A DNA stretch of 64,000 nt, from the NCBI GenBank assembly GCA_032164295.1, contig JAJHTX010000004.1, positions 248,001 through 312,000 on the forward strand, read 5' to 3'. This DNA is from Inonotus obliquus. Taxonomy: Eukaryota; Basidiomycota; Agaricomycetes; Hymenochaetales; Hymenochaetaceae. The notes under the pieces are model-generated. The model made no database searches. It was not told the DNA's origin and saw only the letters and a program-made list of their open reading frames with translations. Positions 1-49,801 of this stretch are shown here, piece after piece. Every line of letters starts with the position of its first letter. The stretch's first letter is position 1. A program made the translations under genes and the position numbers.

Positions 1-21
1 AACCCTCCACGGAGATAAACA
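1..21 (+). repeat. 3' end of the 5' LTR
   Basis: These 21 bases match the last 21 bases of the 3' LTR (9879-9899) without mismatch and end in CA, as LTRs do. The rest of the 5' LTR lies upstream of the window. Confidence 0.85.
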
Positions 22-23
22 TC

Positions 24-41
24 TGGATTAAACTCCCTTCT
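24..41 (+). other. Putative tRNA primer-binding site
   Basis: TGG at 24-26, two bases after the 5' LTR, followed by ATTAAACTC. A PBS normally begins with TGG, the complement of the tRNA CCA end, a few bases inside the LTR. The priming tRNA was not identified; it is not an obvious initiator-Met match. Confidence 0.5.
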
Positions 42-123
42 TGGCAAGCTTAAAGGAACAAGCGCAGACTACTGCCAATAAAGGTAATTGTGATAGCACG
101 AACTAGTCATTCAAATAGACTGA

Positions 124-513
124 TTGAATAATTCCCTTATCCAATCAGTAGGCCACCTGGAACGGCAAATAGACATCAGTAACAACCACCGAAACCTAGA
201 ACCACAGGTCGGGTTAACATTGGAGCGTACAAAACAAACGCAGGAACGAGAACGAGGAGCGCCGAAGGATATAGACGCGTGGAAGCTAATAGCGAGGCAA
301 CCAATTTGGCAAGATCTCTACTGGGATCATTTCAAGACAGGAAGGGTTATAGGCAAGGTATCACCTACACCACACGAGAGTGTATTTAAGAGAGCACTAG
401 AAAACGGAGGAGGAACGTTATACTCCGCGCAAGCACACGCCAACCTATTACACCGAATACTACTAGCCCTACTCAACGGAAAGAAAGAGAAAGCAAAAGC
501 AAGTAAAGTATAA
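124..513 (+). CDS. Met-less open frame A in the retroelement leader (function unknown)
   Basis: An open frame of about 130 codons between an in-frame TGA (121-123) and TAA (511-513). It contains no ATG codon at all. It is polar, rich in Arg, Gln, Glu and Asn, and ends in a Lys-rich tail (KKEKAKAS). No domain was recognised. It lies between the primer-binding site and frame B and is in the same frame as B, separated from it by stops at 511 and 532. If translated it would need a non-AUG start or readthrough. It may be no more than open leader sequence, and confidence that it is a protein is low. Confidence 0.3.
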   Translation: MNNSLIQSVGHLERQIDISNNHRNLEPQVGLTLERTKQTQERERGAPKDIDAWKLIARQPIWQDLYWDHFKTGRVIGKVSPTPHESVFKRALENGGGTLYSAQAHANLLHRILLALLNGKKEKAKASKV

Positions 514-549
514 GCACAAAAACCGAATATATAATTAAATATAACTATA

Positions 550-2148
550 GTGGCTTACGAAGGAATATACGCGGGGCTGGTTACAGTATTCATATTTGGT
601 ACGATCTACTATAGGACAGCGATCACAAGTGCGCTCAGACGAGGAACAAGACTACTTCAATACCTGTCTATTTACGAACCCTACGCAACGCAGTGGGGGA
701 TATATCACTACTCAACTGCCATTGGAACGCAAGTGGACCGATTGGCCGGAAGGATCGAACTAATCCTCAACACACAGGCTGAAAAGGATCAAGCATTGGG
801 AGTGTACCTAGACCATCAGTTCAATCAACATATCGAGAAACATAGCCGCTGGCACAGGAGTAACGACGAGGCACACCATATCACCAGAACGTTAGTAAGG
901 TACAACCAGACAGAGCTAGGCATCCTCAGGACAATAACGAGAGAAGTACAACATACCTTCGAGACGCTACAACGAAGACAAGAAGAGCACATAGAGCGGT
1001 GGACTGCCCGAGAACACCGAGACGCCGAATTTCAGCGCGAACTATTAGATAAAGTAAGCCGCATCGAGACAAACTTCCTACGCCTAAGGAATCAAGTGTC
1101 GGATATCAGAGTCGCACTCGCCGCGTGGGAAGGAGAAGAGAGACAGCGGGAGGAAACAGAAATCCAACAAGACTGGAACACCGTCGGATCGTTATTAGGA
1201 GACGATCAAGATCAACCAACGCCGGAACTAACTCAGTCCGAAGCCAGTTGGGAATCACCGAACGAATCGGAGCAGAACGGAGGAGAGTGGGGAACAGGGA
1301 GCCGTTGGGCAAATTCAGAACCAAACAGGTTTAGGGACTTCAACGGAGACGAAAGTTACAGGCACCCAGACTCGCCAATTCCCACTATTCCAGACGAGGA
1401 ACCGGAAGAAGGAGAGATACAATTACACGTAGTCGACTTCAGGGCCCAGACGGAAAACGAAAGTGAGAACCTAACTACAATCACGGAGGAAGAAGAAGGC
1501 ATTAACCAAGAAAGTAGTACCTCCAGGGTTACATTTGATAACGGGAGAAGACTACCAAGCGGCATTAACGTTACTCGAGATCAGACAGGGAACGTCCGCA
1601 TAGACCTGCGAGGATTGGCTAGGTTAAACATAAACGAGATAGTCGAGGAAGTAATTACAGAGCTACAAGAAGAACTAAAACCGACAAACGAACAAATCCC
1701 AACAATAACCATTAGTCGCAAATATCATCGAAAAGCAGATCAGGACAGAATAGTTAAAGGAATCATAGGTCGAATCCGAGAACAAAGGGAAGCGAACAAT
1801 AGGAAAGAAGAAACCAGAGAAGTCCAGAAAACCGAACGAGAACAGGGGATAATTGAAGAGGTAGAAACGAGAGGAAGGTTGGTATTGTATTATTCCCCAG
1901 GATCCACGACCAGTGGCAATTCAGAAGAATTCTCCAGCTCATTCAGCGACGTTAGTCAAGCCCACAGTAGCAACACCACAGAAGACGAATACCTAGAAGA
2001 CAATTATCGAAGGCATTTAGCGTTACTAGAATTCGACCCAGCAGAACTCGAAATCTCAAAACAAGAGCTTAGAGACCGATTGACTTGGGATTCAAGCGAA
2101 GATGACGAGCCTACAAATGAGTATGTCGCAGAAACCACCGAAGTTTAG
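550..2148 (+). CDS. Met-less open frame B (about 530 codons) upstream of and overlapping gag
   Basis: A long frame with no ATG codon anywhere in it. The first codon after the preceding TAA (532) that could serve as a near-cognate start is GTG at 550. A CTG at 577 has G at -3 and G at +4, which is good context for non-AUG initiation. The product would begin with a hydrophobic stretch (LVTVFIFGTIYY), continue into a Gln/Glu/Arg-rich segment with coiled-coil character (roughly codons 75-200), then a very acidic Ser-rich half. It overlaps the gag start by 47 nt in another frame. An open frame of this length in decaying DNA suggests coding constraint. Homology was not recognised. An alternative is that it is an extended gag leader joined to Gag by frameshifting. 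Confidence 0.5.
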   Translation: MAYEGIYAGLVTVFIFGTIYYRTAITSALRRGTRLLQYLSIYEPYATQWGIYHYSTAIGTQVDRLAGRIELILNTQAEKDQALGVYLDHQFNQHIEKHSRWHRSNDEAHHITRTLVRYNQTELGILRTITREVQHTFETLQRRQEEHIERWTAREHRDAEFQRELLDKVSRIETNFLRLRNQVSDIRVALAAWEGEERQREETEIQQDWNTVGSLLGDDQDQPTPELTQSEASWESPNESEQNGGEWGTGSRWANSEPNRFRDFNGDESYRHPDSPIPTIPDEEPEEGEIQLHVVDFRAQTENESENLTTITEEEEGINQESSTSRVTFDNGRRLPSGINVTRDQTGNVRIDLRGLARLNINEIVEEVITELQEELKPTNEQIPTITISRKYHRKADQDRIVKGIIGRIREQREANNRKEETREVQKTEREQGIIEEVETRGRLVLYYSPGSTTSGNSEEFSSSFSDVSQAHSSNTTEDEYLEDNYRRHLALLEFDPAELEISKQELRDRLTWDSSEDDEPTNEYVAETTEV

Positions 2149-3040
2149 AGGAAGAGATAAGGAGAACGTGGATGTATTTATAAATAAAATGATTAGTAAT
2201 TTTGCATGGATGGATGCGCAAAATCAGAGCAACAAACAAGCGGCACTAACAGATAGTAACAAAGCCTATATCATGTGCCAATGCATGGAAGAAAAGGCTG
2301 CCACGTGGGTAAGCACAGCGTTAAAAACAAATCCGCTAGATATGATAGGAAAAGGGCAAGTATGGGAAATGTTTGAAGAATTCTTGACCTACATAAGGAG
2401 TAACCACAAACAATACTACGACCCTGTAGAAGACGCAACGAATAAATTAGTAAATATTGTACAAGAAGGCTCCATATTGCAGTACAATAGCGATTTCGGA
2501 AAGATAGTATCAGAATTAGATAAGGCAGTATGGCCGGATAAGGCACTTACAGTATTATACAGAAGAGGGATGAAAGATTATATTTATGCGCAATTAGCAG
2601 GACAAACGGAAAGCGCGAAATGGACGCTAGCAAACTGGATGAGCCGAGCAGTAGCACTAGAAGGCGCAAGATATGGCGCCAAGGCAAGAACTAAGACCTT
2701 CACGAGCAACTGGGAAAAACCCCAGAGGAGAAAAGACGATGTAGTCCCAATGGACGTAGACGTACGAAAATTCAGGAAGAGGACTAATAAAGGAAAACCC
2801 AGGTACCGGAGTAACCAAAAACCGAAGAATACGACGGGTTGTTACAGATGTGGTAAACCAGGTCACATTGCCAGAGAATGCAGAGTGAAACCACGAGAAG
2901 GAAAACCTCCGAGTAGACTGGGCTATCAAAAATTCAAGAGAAGATTGATAGGAGAAGAATCGGAATATGAAGGCTCCAACGAAGCTAGCGATAACGAGAA
3001 AGAAAGAGAACCTAAAGAGGATTTTCAAGAAAGCGACTGA
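2102..3040 (+). CDS. gag: Gag polyprotein with CCHC zinc knuckle
   Basis: 312 codons from ATG 2102 to TGA 3038-3040. The ATG is the first on the + strand of the window in any frame, which supports it as the start. The N-terminal two thirds look like a gypsy Gag capsid (VDVFINKMISNFAWM, later YYDPVEDATNKLV). A basic stretch follows, then one CCHC knuckle, CYRCGKPGHIARECRV, near residue 247. The acidic C-terminus overlaps an open stretch of the -1 frame (from 3016), from which the protease frame continues, so -1 frameshifting is the likely way Pol is made. No canonical slippery heptamer was found in the 25-nt overlap. The product would package element RNA in the cytoplasm. Confidence 0.88.
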   Translation: MTSLQMSMSQKPPKFRGRDKENVDVFINKMISNFAWMDAQNQSNKQAALTDSNKAYIMCQCMEEKAATWVSTALKTNPLDMIGKGQVWEMFEEFLTYIRSNHKQYYDPVEDATNKLVNIVQEGSILQYNSDFGKIVSELDKAVWPDKALTVLYRRGMKDYIYAQLAGQTESAKWTLANWMSRAVALEGARYGAKARTKTFTSNWEKPQRRKDDVVPMDVDVRKFRKRTNKGKPRYRSNQKPKNTTGCYRCGKPGHIARECRVKPREGKPPSRLGYQKFKRRLIGEESEYEGSNEASDNEKEREPKEDFQESD

Positions 3041-3984
3041 TCGAATCGGCTGATCAGCGCGCAAGAAAAGGGACCATAACGAAACCAGAAGGAAGATGGT
3101 CGCGGGTAAAAGCGAAATGGAAACGCCGATGGACGACCCCGGTAAAACCAAATACCGATCATCCAAAACTGAGGATATACCTCAGTCAAGGGGGAAAGAG
3201 AAACCTACCAATAACAGCAATGATCGACTCAGGATCAGTATTAACAACAATTAGTCCTAATACCGTCAAACGATATGGACTAGATACGGTAAAGAAACAG
3301 AGTCCTGCCCAAATTAGAAATGCAGATGGAACGCTAACGAATAACGGGTGGAAGGAAAGCGTTAGAGCATGGGTGGATACCGGAGCATCAAGAGGAAATA
3401 TGGAACTCGCAGTAGTAGAAACTACAGGAGACAAATTTTTATTAGGAAATGATTGGATAGCTAACTATAAGCCAGTCATAAACTGGGAAACGGGTAAAGT
3501 AACAACTAGATTTGGAGAAGCCAAATTGTTAGGAACTCGGAATATGATAACGATGGAAAGGATGGCTCGATATCAACAGAAAAGAAGAAGAAAATCCCGT
3601 AAAATCAGATCTCCACTGCGAAGAGACTCCGAAGAAGGGTCCGAATCCGAAGGAGACACGGGATTAACAATAAGGTGGAATACCATGGGAAAGGCAAGCT
3701 TAGGGAATTTACCGACACCACCACCAAGGTCCGTACAAACCGCGGTGATTGTGGTGCCTCCAGAAGGAATACGGCCAACCACACTAACGCCTAAGGATGT
3801 CACAGTATTGCCAGCACCAGTAATGCAGTATAGGGAGTTGCAAGAAGGAATCGAATCCGACCCAGAGGAAGTCGCAAGAAGGAATCGAATCCGACCCAGA
3901 GGAAGTCGAAGAAGTAGAAGAAACTACGGAAGAAAGGGACGAATTCCAAGAACAAATCTTGAGAAACTTTGGGAAATTAGCTGA
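3016..3984 (+). CDS. Retropepsin-like protease region of pol (frame-shifted at its end)
   Basis: The frame is open from 3016, the overlap with gag. The first ATG is at 3220 and begins MIDSGSVLTTISP, matching the DSG catalytic motif of retroviral aspartic proteases. The domain runs to about 3540 (GNDWIANYKPVINW). The linker then becomes acidic until 3873, where a 34-bp tandem duplication throws the reading frame into an Arg-rich out-of-frame tail ending at TGA 3982-3984. The original frame continues in the next register from 3908. The product would mature Gag-Pol. Confidence 0.8.
   Translation, partial: RGFSRKRLIESADQRARKGTITKPEGRWSRVKAKWKRRWTTPVKPNTDHPKLRIYLSQGGKRNLPITAMIDSGSVLTTISPNTVKRYGLDTVKKQSPAQIRNADGTLTNNGWKESVRAWVDTGASRGNMELAVVETTGDKFLLGNDWIANYKPVINWETGKVTTRFGEAKLLGTRNMITMERMARYQQKRRRKSRKIRSPLRRDSEEGSESEGDTGLTIRWNTMGKASLGNLPTPPPRSVQTAVIVVPPEGIRPTTLTPKDVTVLPAPVMQYRELQEGIESDPEEVARRNRIRPRGSRRSRRNYGRKGRIPRTNLEKLWEIS
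3840..3907 (+). repeat. 34-bp tandem duplication that breaks the pol frame
   Basis: Two identical 34-bp copies, 3840-3873 and 3874-3907, each starting gcaagaaggaatcg. Because 34 is not a multiple of 3, the frame shifts by +1. Directly after the second copy the new frame reads EEVEETTEER and continues as the acidic linker into RT. The register change is explained by this event alone. Confidence 0.93.
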
Positions 3985-6900
3985 AGAACTGCAAAGACTA
4001 GAGGAAACAAATCTCGAAGACCCGCCGAGATCACCAGAAAGAACGGAAATAGCACTCCCAAGCATAGAACAAATAATATCCGGGGAAACACCGAGTAAAA
4101 GATTACCGCCGCAACCACCGCCAAAAATGCACCAAGTAGGGCAAGGCGGAAGTAGAATAACTAGAGAGAGGAAAACGAGTTACCAAAAGGCCCGGGAAAA
4201 CAAAACTAAACCAGAAGAGGTGGTATACGACCGAAACATGAGAATAACTGTACAAGTAAACGATCAAAAACCCCAAAACCGAGAATATAGCTGAAACAGC
4301 AGGATGAAAAGGGAAAGGACCGAGCAGGAAACAACAGCAATTAAGAAATTAAATAAGTATAGCAGTATGGCACAAAAGTACTCCCAGGAAAAAGCAAGGG
4401 AACAAGGACGATCACAAATAGGAACGACTAAGCATTGGAAATCCTTGGTGCCTAAGGAGCTATGGGATTTCGGGGAAATATTTAGCGAGAACAATTCAAA
4501 ACGACTACCGAAGCACAATCAATGGGATATGAAAATAGTGTTTAAGGAAGGACAGGAACCAACAGCGAAACGAACCATTTATCCGCTAACGCCACTAGAA
4601 CAAAAGGCAGTGGAAGAATTCATAGAAGACAATTTGGCAAAAGGATGGATCAGGAGATCCACTTCAAAGTACGCAATGCCGGTATTCTTCGTCGGAAAGA
4701 AGGATGCAGGGGCAAGAATGGTAATAGATTACCGACCAGTAAATGCAGTTTGTGAAGTAGATCAATACCCGATACCCATTATGCACACGCTACCCGACAA
4801 TTTGGGAAAGGCCAAATAGTTCACCACGCTAGACCTTCGATCAGGATACAATAACATACGAATCCAAGAAGGAGACGAACATAAGGCCGCATTCCAAACA
4901 CATAAAGGAGTATTTGAACCATTGGTAATGCAATTCGGAATGATGAATTCGCCAGCAGTCTTTCAACGAGCTATGAACGAACTATTCGGAGACATGTTGA
5001 ACCATGGAGTGATGATTTATCTAGATGACATCATTATCTATGCTGAAACAAAAGAAGAACTGTTACAAAAGACGAGGAAAGTACTAGCTCGAATACGAAG
5101 AGCAGACTTCTATCTGAAACCAGAAAAATGCTTCTTTAACAAGCAAGAATTAGACTACTTAGGATTCATAGTAAATAAGGACGGATTAAAAATGGACCCG
5201 TACAAGCTCAAAGCAATAGAAGAATGGCCAGTACCGCAAAACAAACGAGATATAAAGAAGTTTACAGGATTTTGTAATTTCTATAGGAAATTTGTCAAGG
5301 ACTATGCAGCAATAGCAAGGCCGATGAAGAAACTAGAATCCAAGAAACAAGCCTTTGTATGGGGAGAAGAGCAACAAAGGTCGTTTGAAGCCCTGAAAAA
5401 GGCCGTAATCACAGGACCAATACTAAGGAGACCAGACTATGACAAAGCCTTCGTAGTAGAAACAGATGCGTCGGACTATGGCATGGGAGCAGTATTATCA
5501 CAAGAACACGAAGGAAAACTACATCCTATTGCCTATCTCACGAGATCCTTTACAACAACTGAAAGGAACTGGCCAGTATCCGAAAAGGAACTGTACGCAG
5601 TTGTAATCGCGCTAACTACTTGGAGACACCATTTAGAAGGAGCGAAACATACCATCATGGTACTATGCGACGCGTTGAACCTGAAGACCTTCATGAAAGC
5701 ACAACGAGTCGGACGAAAACAGGCCCGATGGGTCACGGACGTACTAAGTAGATATCAATTCAAAATCGACTATCGACCAGGAAGCAAGAACACGAGGGCC
5801 GATGCGCTATCCAGGAGATCAGGATATGACGAAGGAAAGAATGATAACAAGGACGTGATCGTATTACCGAGAGAAAGATTCGTCAACCCAAAAATATTTG
5901 ATCGACAAGCTAGAAACAGCACGAGCGAGGGAATGGTACCGCCAAACGATAAATTAATACCCGGACAGGACCGGAAAAGGGATGTATTATACACCTTCCA
6001 CGACTCACCAATGAGCGGACATCCAGGAACAGACAAGACGATAGCGGCAATAGAAGAAATCTATTGGTGGCCGAACATGAAAGAAGAAATTAAGGAATAT
6101 GTTGCCTCATGCCACATTTGTCAAAAGAACAAACCTAGGAGGGGACGAACACAACCACCACTGAAACCATTGGAAATACCAACGGGACCATGGAAACATA
6201 TCACCATGGATTTCATTACAGGACTTCCAGAAAGCGAGGGCTATGATGCGGTGCTAGTGGTAGTAGACCGGTTTTCAAAAATAGCAACGTTTATTCCCTG
6301 TACTAAAGAAACAGACAGTAAGAAAACAGCGAAGATGCTATTGGACCACGTATTCACGAAACACGGACTACCAGAAAGAATTACTAGCGACAGAGGCCCA
6401 CAGTTTACAAGCAACTTTACACAAGAAGTATATAAAGCCATGAATATTGACAATGCGCTTAGCACGGCACATCACCCACAAACAGATGGGCAAAGCGAAA
6501 GAGTAAACCAGGAACTAGAACAATACTTAAGGCATTACGTAAACACAGCGCAAGATAACTGGGCGCAGTACATCCACATGGCAGAGTTTGCTTATAATAA
6601 TAGAGTACACGCAGCAATAAAGAAGTCACCATTTGAACTCCTTTATGGACGGAAATTGGAAATATTGCCCATGGGGCAAGCGAACGCACCAGACGCACAA
6701 GAATACATTAAAAAGGTATGGGAGGTACAGAAACAAGCAGAACAGGCGCTGATGGCGTCAAATGAACAAATGAAGAGATACACCGATAAACATAGAAGAG
6801 CAGAATTGGAATTCAAGGTAGGAGATAGGGTAATGATAGACGCTAGAAACTACAATATAGTAGTACCCAGCAGGAAGATAGGGCCGAAGAATTTAGGACC

Positions 6901-7615
6901 ATACAGAATAATCAAACAACATGGGCCATTGAATTATGAACTAGAATTACCAAAGAAGATGCGCATACATCCAGTATTATATGCAGGCAATCTTATTAAA
7001 TATCAAGATAGAATAGTAGATAACACCACGGAAGACCAAGAAGTACCTTCGAATCCAGTCATTATAGAGGACGACGAATACGAAGTAGAGAGAGTACTAA
7101 ATTCAAGGAAAACAGGACGGAAATATTACTTCTTAATAAATTGGAAGGGATACGGGGCAGAACACGACTCATGGGAACCATTGGGAAACCTAGGAAACGC
7201 CACGGAAAAGATCGAGGAATACTATCAGAAACACCCACAAGCGGAGAAACCAAATTACATCGACGGATGGATTAGAAGGAATAACGAAAACGAAGAGAAA
7301 GGGAAACGAACAGCCAAGAGAAGGATGATAAATACCAGGAACCCGATAAAAATAAAGGATTTCGCGTATGACGAAAACGACCCATTACACACCAATCCTA
7401 GTGGTTCATCGAGAACGGGTAATCTAGAAGAAACATACCAGAGAGTCAAAAGTCCACTATCCAAGGAACAACATTGGGAGGAAGACGACGACAAAATCAG
7501 GATGAATCCTGATCATGCCATAGAAGGAGATAAGGACGGAGGCCGCATCCGGCAAAGAAGTAGACGGTTAACGAAGCGGAAACCTACGGGTTCACACGAG
7601 GAACATGGTATATAA
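3908..7615 (+). pseudogene. pol: pol: RT-RNase H-integrase-chromodomain, two in-frame stops
   Basis: One register holds the whole enzyme. The acidic linker ends at TGA 4292-4294. The RT N-terminus (from ATG 4304; FFVGKKDAGARMVIDYRPVN) is cut by TAG 4817-4819 just before FTTLDLRSGYNNIRI. It then stays open to 7615 with FGMMNSPAVFQ, the YLDD catalytic box (5019-5030), RNase H (ETDASDYGMGAVL; SEKELYAVV), integrase HHCC zinc (HPGTDKT, CHICQKNK), the D,D,E core (TMDFITG, TSDRGPQF, GQSERVNQELE), a GPY/F-like region (GPYRIIKQHGPLNYEL) and a chromodomain (YEVERVLNSRKTGRKYYFL, WKGYGAEHDSWEP) near 7075-7225. The chromodomain places it among chromoviruses, which target chromatin marks. Both stops fall in conserved or linker sequence, so they look like mutations rather than programmed sites. 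Confidence 0.92.
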
Positions 7616-7883
7616 AGAAAAGAGTCGCCGACGAGATACCAGTATCCTTATCAATTCCTTTCACCACCGCCATCAAAACCCTAAACACGAGTACCAACGC
7701 CGAACGAAAATGTCGAATACCATAAAGCTCGTACTCGCAGTAGTAGCGTTTGGATTGGTCATCATGATGAGTCTGATAATACAATGGAGAATGCAATTTT
7801 GGATATGGAGACAGGTGCGCAATCATTACAATAGAGAGATGGTAACCGTTAACCAGCTATCAGGAATTAAATCACCCGCCTGA
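7605..7883 (+). CDS. Small membrane-segment protein frame after pol
   Basis: ATG at 7605, overlapping the end of pol by 11 nt; 92 codons. A basic N-terminus (KEKSRRRDTS) precedes one clear hydrophobic helix (LVLAVVAFGLVIMMSLII) near residues 45-62. The frame ends at TGA 7883. A second register is open from 7846 (QELNHPPEDEGVDQNP) and continues into the acidic frame below, so the two were probably one protein split by a small indel near 7845-7880. The position after integrase recalls env-like accessory genes, but there is no homology evidence for an envelope. Confidence 0.5.
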   Translation: MVYKEKSRRRDTSILINSFHHRHQNPKHEYQRRTKMSNTIKLVLAVVAFGLVIMMSLIIQWRMQFWIWRQVRNHYNREMVTVNQLSGIKSPA

Positions 7884-8349
7884 AGATGAAGGCGTAGATC
7901 AAAACCCGATAGCGTTTGCGAACGGAAATGAAGATGAAGATGAAGATGAAGATGAAGATGAAGATGACGATTACATACCGATGCCGTTCATCCCCTGGCC
8001 AACCGAGCAACAGATAGTGCAAGAAGGAGAACTATGGGCAAACGTAACAGCGCCCTCAAATGAAGATTGGGGAGACATCTCTACGTGGGGAGCAAACTGG
8101 CCAGCAGCGAACGACCCAGCACACTGGGATCACGAAACGTTCTGGACCGACGACGAGTTTATTTTTGACAACTGGACGCCGGAACAATTAAACGAAATCT
8201 ACGAGATAAGAAGGACCGCGAGAGAACAAATGAGAAACGAGTTGGTAAATCGAGCAGCGCTGGAGAGAGCGCTAGAAGAAGAACAGAACGCAGACGACGA
8301 AATATGGGTGGACATTCAGTTATGGTCGTCGAATGTAGAAGAATTTTAG
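7846..8349 (+). CDS. Acidic, Trp-rich accessory frame of the retroelement
   Basis: Open from 7846 (after TAA 7843-7845) to TAG 8347-8349; the first ATG is at 7981. It contains a pure Glu-Asp run from six GAAGAT hexamers, then a Trp- and acid-rich domain (DWGDISTW, PAHWDHETFW, IFDNWTPEQL) and a helical Arg/Glu C-terminus. No family was recognised. It may be the C-terminal part of the membrane-segment protein encoded just upstream. Confidence 0.45.
   Translation, partial: PLTSYQELNHPPEDEGVDQNPIAFANGNEDEDEDEDEDEDDDYIPMPFIPWPTEQQIVQEGELWANVTAPSNEDWGDISTWGANWPAANDPAHWDHETFWTDDEFIFDNWTPEQLNEIYEIRRTAREQMRNELVNRAALERALEEEQNADDEIWVDIQLWSSNVEEF
7930..7965 (+). repeat. (GAAGAT)6 hexanucleotide repeat
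   Basis: Six exact GAAGAT units followed by GACGAT. It encodes an Asp-Glu run in the frame open from 7846. Slippage here cannot change the frame, because the unit is 6 bp. Confidence 0.9.
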
Positions 8350-8424
8350 CTCAAAATGGGCTTAAGAATTATGAATAAAGAATATGTGTCATGCATTCCT
8401 TATGATTATGTCAGATGCATTCCT

Positions 8425-8435
8425 AGAAGGGGGAG
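8425..8435 (+). other. Polypurine tract
   Basis: agaagggggag lies immediately before TGTTAG, the proposed start of the 3' LTR. Plus-strand priming needs such a tract. No comparable purine run sits next to a TG further downstream with equally good spacing. Confidence 0.7.
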
Positions 8436-8478
8436 TGTTAGAAAGGTAGTATTATCCATCATTAATAAGCCAATAACT

Positions 8479-9249
8479 ATGAGCGTCCTACGTTGGATAC
8501 AAGAGCGGTTAGCGGCAGTAATACAAGTACTAGAACAGCCCATCGTTCCTCCGACACCGCGAAGCAATATATTACGATGTTGCAACACGTGCCGCCCAGC
8601 TAAAGAACTAGCTGGAGGACTAATGCGAGAATTAATCAGAGAGATCACGTACGGAGACATAATGAACGGACAAGCCGATATAATGATACGACGTCGATTT
8701 GTAGAACTAACCTACGACCCTAACCAACAAATGCAAAAGGCTTATGAAAGGGAGATACGAGTATTATCCTACGACGCCGGACACTTTGTAATGATGATCG
8801 GAATACGAAACGTAGCACAGGAAGGAAGACACGAACGATGCGACGCAGCTATAGTAGATGTTGACATTGCCTACAAGCGAGACCAAGCTGGAACGAACGA
8901 GAGAACTGCATATGCTTGGGGGCATTGGATAATGAATTACATAAGTCGAGGATTACCTTATGGATATACCATAATGGAAATAAAGGTAGAACAGTACGGC
9001 GGAGTAATACACCTACAAGGAGTACAAGGGATAACCCTACAACGCGCCAGGACAACGCCAGGATATACACGAGTGCAAACTATTCGAAACTGGCTGACTG
9101 TACCACGACCGATCCTACCGATACCAACGAGACCCGAAATACAAGGACAGATGACTCAGCAATTACCTAGAATAGCTGAATTAGATCAAGTGCCGTTACC
9201 TACACAAGGATCAAACCTATCTACAAGATGGTACCGCCCACTACACTAA
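8479..9249 (+). CDS. Open frame inside LTR U3, unknown function
   Basis: 256 codons from ATG 8479 (MSVLRWIQERL) to TAA 9247-9249. The frame is also open upstream to ATG 8356, outside the LTR. Features are a Cys cluster (CCNTCRP), a mixed alpha/beta-like central domain (RRRFVELTYDP, HFVMMIGIRNVAQ, AWGHWIMNYISRGLPYGYTI) and a Pro-rich tail. It is free of lesions although pol is broken. Being in U3, it would be carried at the 3' end of the genomic RNA and duplicated in both LTRs. No homologue was recognised. Confidence 0.55.
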   Translation: MSVLRWIQERLAAVIQVLEQPIVPPTPRSNILRCCNTCRPAKELAGGLMRELIREITYGDIMNGQADIMIRRRFVELTYDPNQQMQKAYEREIRVLSYDAGHFVMMIGIRNVAQEGRHERCDAAIVDVDIAYKRDQAGTNERTAYAWGHWIMNYISRGLPYGYTIMEIKVEQYGGVIHLQGVQGITLQRARTTPGYTRVQTIRNWLTVPRPILPIPTRPEIQGQMTQQLPRIAELDQVPLPTQGSNLSTRWYRPLH

Positions 9250-9396
9250 ACTAATCAAAGAGAGGCTAGTAACACAGAGGTAGTGAAATGAGGAAGGAAG
9301 TAAAGAGAAAGCACGGACCAGGTATCATAGAGGAAGAAACAGATAAATACCATAAACAGTAAGTAACAAGGTAGTAACGTCACACATGTAAATTAG

Positions 9397-9405
9397 TATA
9401 TAAGG
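9397..9405 (+). promoter_or_regulatory. LTR TATA box
   Basis: TATATAAGG about 500 bp before the LTR end, the expected place for the retroelement core promoter. From here to 9899 there is no ATG on the + strand. Confidence 0.65.
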
Positions 9406-9899
9406 AGGCCATCGTAGAGCCGACCTAGTAGTTTAATCCAAGTCAAGGGACCCTACCATAAGTCCCTAAGTTAAATCGTAACATCAATTACTTGCGAGCC
9501 AGTAAATTACCAGTAGCGACACGGCTGAACTAAACCGATTGTGTGAAATCGAAGTAAAGCTAAAAATACGGATTGCAACTAGATTGTTCTCCCTATTGTC
9601 TGCACGGTACGAGCTACTCACAACGTAGTGCGATTCCCGATATTCCCTTATCGTGAATAACAATCAGTATAACAATCGCGTCTGCACGCCGACTTAATAC
9701 TGTACGATTATAGTATCAGGTTCAACTGCAATATTAGTTAGTTGCTAGTTGTTTCAGATCGGATCAGCTACACAGTCCACTAAGGTGATTAGCAATTCCA
9801 TAACCAGTATTGTAGAATTTGGATTAACCCCTCAAACCGAGGAATTAGCCAGATTGGTCCGTCGATCAAGAATCAACGAACCCTCCACGGAGATAAACA

Positions 9900-30261: not shown

Positions 30262-31527
30262 TAGGGTTCCGAACGTATCGGATACACATATGGCCATATG
30301 AATACGACCGTATAACTGACTGTTCAAACCTTTATATGCATACGGAAGGCCCGTATACGGAAGATACAGCGTATACAAAGACTTCTATATTCCGTAACCC
30401 CAGAACATAATTTATTACCTTTTTTGTAAGTATACTATGCTATATGGTGACACCCTGAAGGGTTTAAAGTCTGGCACATTGAAAACAAATGTCTCAAGAC
30501 AAATTTAAGAGAATCAGCGTGAATCAGTATTATATTGTGATCATAGGAGGAGTTTGAACAGCTACTTATAATGCAGTAACTCCTTCTTTGTTCTTTTCTT
30601 GACTCGACACATGCAAGTTTCCGATTCCCACAGAAGGAAATATACCTTTTTCCATCAAAATAAGACGGAAAATTCCGTGCAAAGTGCATGTGAGCTAAAA
30701 TTCCGTATACAGTCAAAGACGCGTCCTTTGAACACCCAATTGAAATTGGGCCCAGAGAATGCCAAACGCCAGTTTTCTCAAATTTAAACACACAATCTTG
30801 GAGCTTATTACGAAAGCTACTTGCTGAATTTTTTTCGGGGCAGAAAACGCTGTGGAAAAATAGATATGGGTCCGTGAAGAAAGTGAGGAAAATGTCACAA
30901 GACTCACTCCTTTGAACACCTTGTGACGTAATGTCACGATTACACTTGGTTACAAATGATTTGCCGAGAGATCTACTTATGGCAATATGTCGATCATTTT
31001 TCCAGTCACACTTTGCGAGTTTTATGTGTTATTAATCGATTGAAGAATCATTTCATCACGAAACTTGGCACACACATAACCAAAGTAGCATGCTTTAAGA
31101 ATATATCATAAATGTTTTGAGTAGAGACCCAGAGCATCTGCAGGATGACCCGGTTTAGATCCAGCTCTAGGAATTACACCAAATTTCGACAGTAAATGTT
31201 TTTTCTAGACTCAACATTTTACTCAATTTTTCTAAGAATTTGCACATGTACCAGCACAGTCATTTCTAACATCCTGCTATTTTTTCGAGGTGAGAAACGA
31301 AGAATTGGGTGAGAAAAGCCTAGGTGTTCAAAGGAACAGTCCTGTTTAAAGGACGCGTCTTTGACTGTACGGAGAATACGCCTTATAAGAGTTTTTTTGC
31401 TTTCCTCATACGCATACGGCCGTATATATCCGGCCCGTATATTTTCTTGTTTCCCCCTCATACGATCCGGCCGTATCCCGGATACGGAAACCCGTATACG
31501 CGTCATATGCATACGTTCGGAACACTA
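30262..31527. mobile_element. hAT-like MITE (1,266 bp) in the WD40 region
   Basis: 8-bp target duplication ATACCCAG (30254-30261 and 31528-31535). Termini TAGGGTTCCGAACGTAT on the left and, inverted, TAGTGTTCCGAACGTAT on the right. TAG-initial short inverted repeats with 8-bp duplications are typical of hAT elements. It is non-coding. Removing it with one duplication rejoins the host gene as SLGMPSSWVTKDGWVRG. It contains the mariner-like element below, so the hAT-like insertion is the older of the two. Confidence 0.87.
30710..31367. mobile_element. mariner-like MITE, copy A (658 bp), nested in the hAT-like MITE
   Basis: Flanked by TA (30708-30709 and 31368-31369). Inverted termini CAGTCAAAGACGCGTCCTTT. 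The interior is collinear with the elements at 48524-49193 and 47050-49801 (aaaaatagatatgg, ctcctttgaacaccttgtga, tttttctagactcaac), but its outermost ~14 bp differ from theirs (CAGTCAAAGACGCG versus CAGGAAAATACTG). Confidence 0.87.
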
Positions 31528-46658: not shown

Positions 46659-47049
46659 TGCCGTCGTCTGTATGAAGCGTAGTTGCTGGAATGCGTCACT
46701 CGAGGTGGGTATATATAGCTAACAACAAAGCGGTGTACACAGTGTGAGAAGATATCGGAGATTTCACCGATTGACCACTGACAAGAGTCCATCGTAATCA
46801 TTTACCCACCGTGCTGGACACGCAGGAAAGTTGGAAAGGCCACTGAGCCGCTACGACGCGTAAGTGCCCGCCCATGCAAAACGAAGCCGGCAGAAGAGCT
46901 CGTTCGTGTATACTCGGCACGAGTTTGATGCCCATTTGCTTCAACTACGAATTCCTGCTGTTGCTTACGTTGTTTTGTTTCTTTACCATTCAATACGTAT
47001 GAGCGCGATACCATTGGTTTGATGACTGCTATCATAGTGGACTGCAATA
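46659..47049. other. P450 promoter region; no other feature supported
   Basis: Upstream flank of the P450 gene up to the MITE nest. tatatatag near 46711-46719 lies on the + strand. Confidence 0.5.
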
Positions 47050-47291
47050 CAGGAAAATACTGTTCCTTTAAACACCAATTACAAACTTGTCCCCATGTCT
47101 TTCCACACACAACTTTTCAGAAGTTAAAATACATTTTCATGGAGTATACTATAGGAGACACATGCTGATTTTTTTCTAAGCCGGAAGGTGCGCTAGAAAA
47201 ATAGATATGGACCTGGAAAGAAACAAGGGCCCCTGTCACGGAAAACGACTCCTTTGAACACCTTGTGACGTAATGTCACGCCAATATCAAT

Positions 47292-48121
47292 GGTACCTGG
47301 CACGGCCTATGTAATTTCCGTGACATTCCCACGGTCCCTTCCATGGCTAAGCGGCGATCGACACGGATTCACCTGTTCCACTTTTTGTTTTGAGATTCGA
47401 GGGCCCGTCCTCCCTTCCACAACTTTACAAAAAATCTGAAAAAATGTCCAAAAATTATTTTTCGACACTCTGAACAAGGTGGTAAGAAAAATTACAAAAA
47501 CTGTCCAACAGATTCCAAGATACGGCGATTTTTGACACATATATAAATAACTATGACACTTCTTAAGAATTCTTTTTTAACAAAATCTTTATTTTTCGTT
47601 AAGATTTATATTTCTGAAAGAAATATGACAAGAAAGCCTGAATTCATTGAGCTAGGAAGCATATATGCTGCTGTGTCTACTGTATATGCTAATCTCTCCA
47701 CCAGTATGTCAATTTTTTTCGCATATAGTTGACAGAACCACCCTAATACACACATACATCATGTCCAGGCAGTTTTAAAGGAGTTTTATAAGTGTTTTCA
47801 GAGGAAGATATGGTCGTGCAAAAAAGCCAAAATAAGATCACGTGACACATAAGTGAAAACAGTTATGTATATTCTGCCTGAATATCACCTACAATCGATT
47901 CGGATTTGGTATATTTCACATCAGATAGTTATTCCAAGCCTTTTCATGTTGAAAGGAAGGGACAAATAACTCAAATTATGTGGAACTACATATTCAAGGG
48001 ATTTAGTGGGGGACCGGAAAGTGGGACATGAAGATCGACGCGAGTTACTATAAATGGAAAGTATTTGAAACTCCGCCCGGGAAAAAGTGGCACGGATTTT
48101 TTATAGGCCGTGCCAGGCACC
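47292..48121. mobile_element. Mutator-like MITE (830 bp)
   Basis: 9-bp target duplication AATATCAAT (47283-47291 and 48122-48130). Inverted termini GGT(A/G)CCTGGCACGGCCTAT, with weaker pairing continuing for about 20 bp (TCCGTG blocks). 9-bp duplications are the hallmark of the Mutator superfamily. Non-coding. Confidence 0.88.
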
Positions 48122-48142
48122 AATATCAATTACACTCTGGTT

Positions 48143-49382
48143 CACGGCGGGCAAAATAGGATATCAGCGGGCATTAAATTTAAAGAATTTTTCTTGCAAT
48201 TATTTTAAATATCAGTAAGCATATCGACCTTGCCAATATTATTTATATAAACCACGTGCCCATATTTTTTATATTGATATGGATATCGATTGGGTTGATA
48301 TTTTAAATTCCCATCTGTTTTTATGCATATCTTCCTGAAAGATAGTCTAAACATCTACTTTAAATCTCGGTAAGTATATCATACTACAGGTGGGTACATA
48401 AAGTCTTCGGCACCCCCGTTTTAGGAAGGTGGATTTGCATGCTTTATGTGGTAGAATAAGCGTCGGGTAGCCCTCGGCAACCTGGTCATATCGGCAAAGA
48501 CTTGGGATGGACTTGGTTGCTTACAGGAAAATACTGTTCCTTTAAACACCAATTACAAACTTGCCCCTAGGTCTTTCCACACACAACTTTTCAGAAATTA
48601 AAATACATTTTCATGGAGTATACTATAGGAGACACATGCTGATTTTTTTCCAAGCCGGAAGGTGTGCTGGAAAAATAGATATGGACCTGGAAAGAAACAA
48701 GGGCCCCTGTCACAGAAAACGACTCCTTTGAACACCTTGTGACATAATGTCATGCCAATATCAATTACACTCCGGTTGTAATGAATTGCTGAGATATCTT
48801 ATTTTCTCAGCACGCCGATCATTTTGACTATCACACTCTTGAGATTTTCTTACAATATTAATTGATTGAGCAGCAGTTTCTCCCTGAAACTTGGAGTGAA
48901 AGTAGACTATGTAGCATACTTTTAGATTATCAGGTTATCTATACAGTTAAATAACAGGGGGAATTGCAGGATGAATTGGTTTCGACTCAGGTCTGTGAAT
49001 TTCACCAAATATCAGCACTGTATAATTTTTCTAGACTCAACAGCTTGCTCAAATTTCTTGTAAATTTGCAGACTCAGTGATACATACTATCCTTTGGTTC
49101 ATGCATGTTTATGAGATGATAAGTGAAGAATTGAGTGAGAAAAGTCATGGTGTTCAAAGGAACAGTACTGTTTAAAGGACCGGTATTTTCCTGTACTCAA
49201 AAAGGCATGCAAATCACCTTCCATATTTGGGGGGTGCTGAAGACTTAATGTACCCACCTGTATCAATCCCGCCGGTATTATAAATATAAATCACGTGCTG
49301 ATATGCTTGCCGATATTTGAAATTTCGGCAAAAAAATAATTTTAAATACCGCACCCTCTGATATTCTATTTTGCCTGCCGTG
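48143..49382. mobile_element. CACTA/Harbinger-like MITE (1,240 bp) carrying a nested element
   Basis: Inverted termini CACGGC(G/A)GGCAAAATAG, 16 of 17 paired, with a 3-bp duplication GTT (48140-48142 and 49383-49385). Interior outside the nested element is about 568 bp, AT-rich and non-coding. A 3-bp duplication fits CACTA or PIF/Harbinger; the family is not settled. Confidence 0.8.
48524..49193. mobile_element. mariner-like MITE, copy C (670 bp), intact
   Basis: TA target duplication at 48522-48523 and 49194-49195. Termini CAGGAAAATACTGTTCC and, inverted, CAGGAAAATACCGGTCC. Nearly identical to copy B, so both inserted or were copied recently. Non-coding. Confidence 0.9.
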
Positions 49383-49801
49383 GTTGTAATGAATTGCCGA
49401 GATATCTTCTTTTGTCAGCACGCCGATCATTTTGACTATCACACTCTTGAGATTTTCCTACAATATTAATCGATTGAGATGCAGTTTCTCCCTGAAACTT
49501 GGAGTGAAAGTAGAATATGTAGCATACTTCTAGAGTATCAGGTTATCTATACAGTTAAATAACAGGGGGAATTGCAGGAGGAATTGGTTTCGACTCAGGT
49601 CTGTGAATTTCACCAAATATCAGCACTGTATAATTTTTCTAGACTCAACAGCTTGCTCAAATTTCTTGTAAATTTGCAGACTCAGTGATACATACTATCC
49701 TTTAGTACATGCATTTTTCTGAGTTGATAAGTAAAGAATTGAGTGAGAAAAGTCATGGTGTTCAAAGGAACGGTACTGTTTAAAGGACCGGTATTTTCCT
49801 G

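Follow-up and report, generated by a model that had tools for sequence, protein, structure and literature searches.

A predicted AUG-free leader of 2.5 kb with two open frames in a self-primed Ty3/gypsy retrotransposon of Inonotus obliquus, read as long leaky scanning to gag

Described systems and the layout of the element

Ogre is a plant LTR retrotransposon with an extra ORF before gag. Additional ORFs upstream of gag-pol (ORF0) are likewise carried by the plant LTR retrotransposons Retrosat2, RIRE3 and RIRE8, in an account whose passages on these elements mention neither AUG avoidance nor non-AUG starts (PMC3485330). In the self-priming elements Tf1 and Tj1 the element's own mRNA carries at its 5' end the complement of the primer-binding site (PBS) (PMC4600332). 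MLV glyco-Gag, an in-frame extension of Gag with an N-terminal signal sequence, starts in good context at a CUG codon 264 bases upstream of the gag AUG (PMC3265304). In the cellular gene POLG/POLGARF, where there is also a uORF, a CUG-initiated ORF lies ahead of and overlaps an AUG-initiated ORF reached by leaky scanning, the two starts being 53 nt apart (PMC10742948). Rice tungro bacilliform virus (RTBV) and the badnaviruses are reverse-transcribing elements whose polycistronic RNA places ORFs I and II, without internal AUG, ahead of the capsid-RT ORF. In RTBV approximately 10% of ribosomes start at the AUU codon of ORF I, the first long ORF, and the others continue scanning for 900 nt, aided by the absence of internal AUGs; before this stretch, ribosomes shunt past a structured, uORF-containing leader (PMC5902531).

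The window analyzed here, 64,000 nucleotides of I. obliquus DNA (contig JAJHTX010000004.1, positions 248,001 to 312,000), begins in the last bases of the 5' LTR of an element lying on the + strand. Pfam matches in this copy occur in the order RVT_1, RNaseH, Integrase_H2C2, rve and Chromo (1e-12), with the chromodomain at the integrase end, and by this domain content the element is a Ty3/gypsy chromovirus (chromodomain retrotransposon). Its LTRs (TG...CA, 1464 bp) are identical, the 5' copy spanning -1442, outside the window, to 21, so that only its 3' tail (1..21) is included, and the 3' copy occupying 8436..9899. The identical LTRs and a 5-bp target duplication (GCCTC) indicate that the insertion is probably recent. 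Caulimoviridae are non-integrating DNA pararetroviruses without LTRs and integrase, and the LTRs, integrase and target duplication present here place the element outside that family.

The gag gene (2102..3040; Ty3_capsid and CCHC zinc knuckle) starts in the context AAGAUGA at the first AUG of the predicted RNA and is followed by a protease frame (3016..3984, aspartic protease) and a pol frame encoding RT, RNase H, integrase and chromodomain (3824..7615). Two stops interrupt pol in the window copy despite the identical LTRs, and siblings with an open pol frame of 1521 aa exist. A further 3' open frame (7846..9249; 468 codons, with an internal and a terminal stop counted in) ends inside the 3' LTR, within which its C-terminal part (8436-9249) lies; Pfam searches with 7846-8346 and 8350-9246 gave no match, and a similar peptide is encoded upstream of the leader (from position 2) at L026, a locus of the diverged family F2. 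ARAGORN and Rfam scans of the 64-kb window produced no matches. Outside the element, repeated segments of ~230-685 nt that are 67-96% identical were observed at 30708-31370 and 47047-49801.

The PBS of the element, TGGATTAAACT (24..34), lies two nt past the 5' LTR and pairs perfectly over 11 nt with AGTTTAATCCA in the LTR (9430..9440), and a TATA box (9397..9404) begins 33 nt upstream of that site. The Tf1-type arrangement, a PBS complementary to the RNA 5' end, is therefore found against an RNA end that is itself predicted from sequence, namely 9430 in the 3' LTR copy, corresponding to 449 nt before window base 1 and giving a predicted leader of 2550 nt. Similar self-priming pairs were present in related families of the same genome, with a perfect 11-nt pair both in F1, the family of the window copy, and in L026, 13 nt in L027 (the other F2 locus) and 11-16 nt in F4-F7, where TATA is found at -34 or -35 relative to the predicted RNA 5' end. 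Recurrence of this layout in F2 and F4-F7 suggests that the prediction of the RNA 5' end is systematic. In F3 no self-priming pair was found, and this family was excluded from leader counts; F8, first set aside as decayed or nested, has such a pair and was counted. The element differs from Tf1 and Tj1 in adding two apparently coding frames ahead of gag, and its own predicted leader is very long and AUG-free.

ATG content of the leader and its sibling copies

The original prediction held that no ATG occurs in any frame of 1..2101, that the R-U5 part of the LTR (9397-9899) is also free of ATG, and that the genomic RNA would accordingly have some 2.5 kb of AUG-free leader. Direct counting confirmed this, with no ATG in 1..2101 (the first being the gag start at 2102), none in 9397-9899 (the nearest being at 9386 and 9911) and none in the 2550-nt leader predicted from self-priming. 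The figure of approximately 33 ATGs expected in 1..2101 proved an overestimate, T being scarce in the leader (A 0.37, T 0.17): shuffling with dinucleotides preserved gave an expectation of 16.0 (sd 3.1), and of 22.4 (sd 3.3) for the predicted leader. None of 1000 such shuffles reached zero for either sequence, the lowest counts being 7 and 11, respectively, and ATG was the most under-represented of the 64 leader trinucleotides (observed/expected 0), the next being TGA at 0.45. Synonymous-codon shuffles were also run on the two open frames of the leader, A (124..513) and B (550..2148). Out-of-frame ATGs were absent from B against 10.3 expected (0/1000 shuffles as low) and from A against 2.5 expected (36/1000 as low).

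An A-rich, T-poor leader might be expected to hold few ATGs by composition or chance, an explanation to which we give practically no weight and which the original prediction had already set aside. It is contradicted by the dinucleotide- and codon-keeping shuffles, which rule out chance, composition and codon usage, and by the trinucleotide CAT, which was counted 26 times in 1..2101 (about 25 had been claimed) and occurs at expectation in B (14 vs 14.0) and likewise in A. It is also contradicted by gag and pol, which have a composition similar to that of the leader and normal ATG content; within the same element, the ATG counts of the synonymous-codon test were 13 vs 13.8 expected for gag, 9 vs 9.2 for the protease frame and 34 vs 33.6 for pol. 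The longest ATG-free run within 2102-9385 is 304 nt, and beyond 9911 the longest runs are 470 nt (+ strand) and 627 nt (- strand).

Sibling copies of F1 were sought in the 36-Mb, 30-contig assembly and frame B was found at 16 places with 97-100% identity, two of them interrupted by insertions. The leader was without ATG in 10 of the 16 copies and contained a single one in the other six. Among the 14 uninterrupted leaders nine had no ATG and five had one each, all five private to their copy; four of these derive from ACG, present in most other copies, and one from GTG, and that of L016 is in frame within B. In the two interrupted copies, for which leader pieces were counted, one ATG was found in one and none in the other. 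Many ATGs in sibling leaders, named beforehand as the outcome that would tell against the prediction, did not occur in F1, where the maximum was one per copy. Private variants (88) created ATG five times against 4.8 expected, and the 77 variants present in more than one copy never did so against 4.3 expected (P 0.013, the kinship of the copies being ignored). New mutations create ATG at about the neutral rate, and none is found among the variants common to copies. Taken with the related families described below, among which there are exceptions, the two kinds of shuffle and the sibling copies support selection against AUG over the whole leader, as had been proposed.

Coding evidence and candidate start codons of frames A and B

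A single open frame of 532 codons had been noted in the leader. This frame, B, was borne out, with 532 codons counted from a candidate GUG start at 550, and a second frame with coding features, A (129 codons after an in-frame stop), is present as well; in the window copy both are devoid of methionine codons. Variable sites at first, second and third codon positions, counted over the 14 uninterrupted copies, numbered 4/6/19 in A and 26/14/68 in B. Synonymous changes were in excess in both frames (18 vs 9.6 expected in A, 69 vs 35.1 in B), with omega-like ratios of 0.30 and 0.28, the shuffles and ratios being computed on closely related copies, and no synonymous excess was found in the other two frames. 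Indels in B are of 3 and 6 nt only, in contrast to those outside the frames, which are of 2-8 nt and not confined to multiples of three, and frame A is open in 16 copies. The diverged family F2 (L026 and L027) encodes both products, with 30% identity for A and 33% for B. This selection pattern and the conservation in F2 indicate that A and B are probably protein-coding and under purifying selection.

Comparison with databases gave little indication of what such products might be. Pfam searches with A and B from the window gave no match at the cut-off and those with the F2 versions only sub-threshold ones, and among PDB sequences B had no match and A two weak, unconvincing matches. No relative of B outside its own genome was present among 7987 candidates scored; for gag, two proteins were found outside the genome, without genomic context, and viral contigs searched with gag and RT gave no matches. 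AlphaFold models of A and B were of low confidence (mean pLDDT 54 and 46, respectively), that of B suggesting an acidic, mostly helical protein following an N-terminal hydrophobic segment. The absence of Pfam families and of a database relative of B, along with the lack of a proven start codon, would fit a situation in which scanning is needed for gag alone and A and B are relics of genes that have ceased to be translated. We consider this improbable, as the frame-specific omega-like ratios were obtained among 14 recent copies, B indels keep to multiples of three and the proteins are conserved in F2.

As no AUG precedes gag, both frames must, on the evidence of their sequence, be initiated at codons other than AUG, barring an AUG brought in by splicing. 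A conserved start codon was sought for A and none could be fixed. For B the candidate is a GUG at 550..552 (context AUA-GUG-G), which has a purine (A) at -3 and G at +4, is conserved between F1 and F2 and is invariant in 14/14 F1 copies. The 12-nt sequence ATAGTGGCTTAC is identical in F1 and F2 at the point where similarity of B begins and is likewise invariant in all 14 F1 copies, and positions 514-531 vary in both sequence and length. B therefore probably starts at GUG 550. In both F1 and F2 the N-terminus of B contains a hydrophobic stretch resembling a signal anchor; however, counting upstream codons shifts the best 19-residue hydropathy window 2-3 residues upstream, and the F2 codons upstream of the GUG are likewise hydrophobic, so that the hydrophobic segment fits the GUG without fixing the start. 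A non-AUG start in good context followed by such a segment would recall MLV glyco-Gag (PMC3265304). Glyco-Gag is an extension of Gag, whereas B is a separate frame, out of frame with gag, that ends just inside it at 2148, and B is not a glyco-Gag of the MLV type. As in POLG/POLGARF, a putative non-AUG ORF precedes an AUG ORF and runs into it, at a start-to-start distance of 1552 nt (GUG 550 to AUG 2102) as opposed to 53 nt (PMC10742948).

Splicing could provide the AUG that A and B lack, if a leader-less spliced RNA made Gag and A or B was read from other spliced RNAs with an AUG in an upstream exon. A conserved intron-like block of 65 nt is in fact present at 84-148 (GTAATTGTG...ACTGAT...CAG) and has a 66-nt counterpart in F2 (L026 1433-1498; GTAAYTGTG, ACTGAT, AG), and with its flanks joined, frame A of both F1 and F2 extends upstream as far as the same PBS stop. 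Removal of the block, however, creates no AUG and leaves B in place, and a leader-less gag RNA would render AUGs in the leader harmless, yet no frame contains one anywhere between the predicted 5' end and gag. Splicing is for these reasons regarded as unlikely, albeit the most credible of the alternatives to scanning.

Related families and the proposed translation of the leader

The F2 leaders depart from strict absence of ATG. That of L026 contains two ATGs, one shared with L027 (ACG in F1), which in the context GAGAUGA opens a 30-codon uORF, and one private (ACG in F1, ACA in L027). That of L027 contains eight, comprising five that are ACG in L026, the shared one and two that have otherwise arisen; L027 looks decayed, with stops in the A, B and gag frames.

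Of family F4, 17 copies were compared, and in 16 of them the gag start was located. Its leader ORF, B4, starts at a weak AUG (UAUAUGC) that is invariant in 17/17 copies and lies 835 nt upstream of a strong gag AUG (ACAAUGG) in the 16 copies with a gag start. No further ATG occurs between the two in 14 of these 16, the exceptions being L048 and L058, and over the whole leader, or from the start of the locus to gag, the B4 AUG is the sole ATG in 12/17 copies, one or two extra being present in 5/17. In L032 (3647-4528) B4 has 293 codons and its initiator is the only Met. An omega-like ratio of 0.20 was obtained for B4, with 46/66 changes at third positions and a stop in 2/16 copies; out-of-frame ATGs numbered 0 against 2.1 expected (63/1000 shuffles as low), a result that is weak alone. 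No credible homology between B and B4 was found by BLASTP or profile comparison. F4 would thus appear to use a weak AUG where F1 and F2 appear to use GUG. B and B4 each share 47 nt with the start of gag, in the same relative frame, and the F2 ORF stops 23 nt short of gag, and this difference between overlap and gap disfavours frameshifting or stop-start coupling between B and gag.

Low ATG counts were also observed in three further families. In F5 one ATG is present in L035 (leader 1100 nt) and two in L036, in F6 there is none in either copy (790 nt in the first), and in F7 there is none in L039 (1270 nt) and one in L040; counts as low were reached in 1/1000 shuffles each for L035, the first F6 copy and L039. 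The AUG of L035 (UACAUGU) opens a 73-codon uORF (1645-1866), in which 4/6 differences between the two copies are at third positions, and a coding signal sought in leader ORFs of F6 and F7, in two copies each, received no clear support. The self-primed family F8, with six ATGs in the L041 leader and a single one in that of L042, shows that the AUG-free rule is not universal. In F1, F2 and F4-F7 the ATG-poor zone ends at the gag AUG, and its upstream limit precedes the predicted RNA 5' end by 39-62 nt in five of these six families and by 155 nt in F6.

These data are best read as long leaky scanning of the kind described for RTBV, nearly three times longer and in an LTR retrotransposon. We propose that the genomic RNA is polycistronic and translated by cap-dependent scanning, A and B having weak starts past which ribosomes leak to gag, and assign this a probability of roughly 0.7. 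The 40S subunit would enter at the RNA 5' end predicted from the self-priming sequence. A minority of ribosomes would initiate at weak sites, a non-AUG codon for A and probably GUG 550 for B, the latter yielding a protein with an N-terminal segment like a membrane anchor, and the majority would leak past and scan 2550 nt from the 5' end before encountering their first AUG, at the start of gag. Any AUG in the leader would capture scanning ribosomes and so would be purged in all frames, even within A and B. Scanning in this manner would explain why ATG is lost in three frames, from coding and non-coding sequence alike, between limits set by the RNA start and the gag AUG. Of the original proposal that ribosomes scan to gag, the purging of AUG is supported by the shuffles and siblings, and scanning over this distance is what we infer from it. 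Our confidence in scanning fell slightly after the hydropathy check and the counting of ATGs in F8.

Internal ribosome entry at gag or at B, with the leader left unscanned, might be suggested by the length of the leader and by R-U5, which is somewhat more structured (mean MFE per 120 nt -23.1) than gag (-19.2) or pol (-17.9). The region of A and B is structured about like gag and pol (-18.7), and internal entry leaves the loss of AUG along the whole leader unexplained; we see only a slim chance that it operates here. Leaky scanning remains the preferred reading and, as in RTBV, upstream ORFs with evidence of coding are free of AUG as far as the AUG that starts the following ORF, with F2 and the private variants as exceptions. 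The AUU start of RTBV ORF I might have its equivalents in the candidate GUG of B and the weak AUG of B4 (PMC5902531). The element differs from RTBV in the distance, 2550 nt from the predicted 5' end as against ~900 nt, in having no uORF in most copies, in being an LTR retrotransposon and in that both of its upstream ORFs are AUG-less.

The kind of mechanism is thus already known and, within the literature surveyed, its extent and the carrier element are new; the portions of that literature covered describe no AUG-free leaders or non-AUG leader genes for LTR retrotransposons. A wider proposition, which we hold somewhat less firmly than scanning itself and still favour on balance, is that a self-primed Ty3 lineage produces two proteins, both conserved and one of them anchored in a membrane, solely from non-AUG codons, that the host ribosome scans more than 2.5 kb, two coding frames included, efficiently enough for Gag to be produced, and that AUG has been purged from whole genes, leaving the first AUG 2.55 kb from the 5' end. 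Gene-prediction programs that demand an ATG would overlook entire genes of such elements, and copies with a newly arisen private AUG in the leader would constitute a natural mutant series. If the reading is correct, the element would represent an extreme case of natural leaky scanning, with approximately 2.5 kb without AUG and some 660 codons without methionine, and two questions would become testable, namely the distance over which a eukaryotic 40S subunit is able to scan in vivo and the means by which a gene lacking AUG is expressed and maintained.
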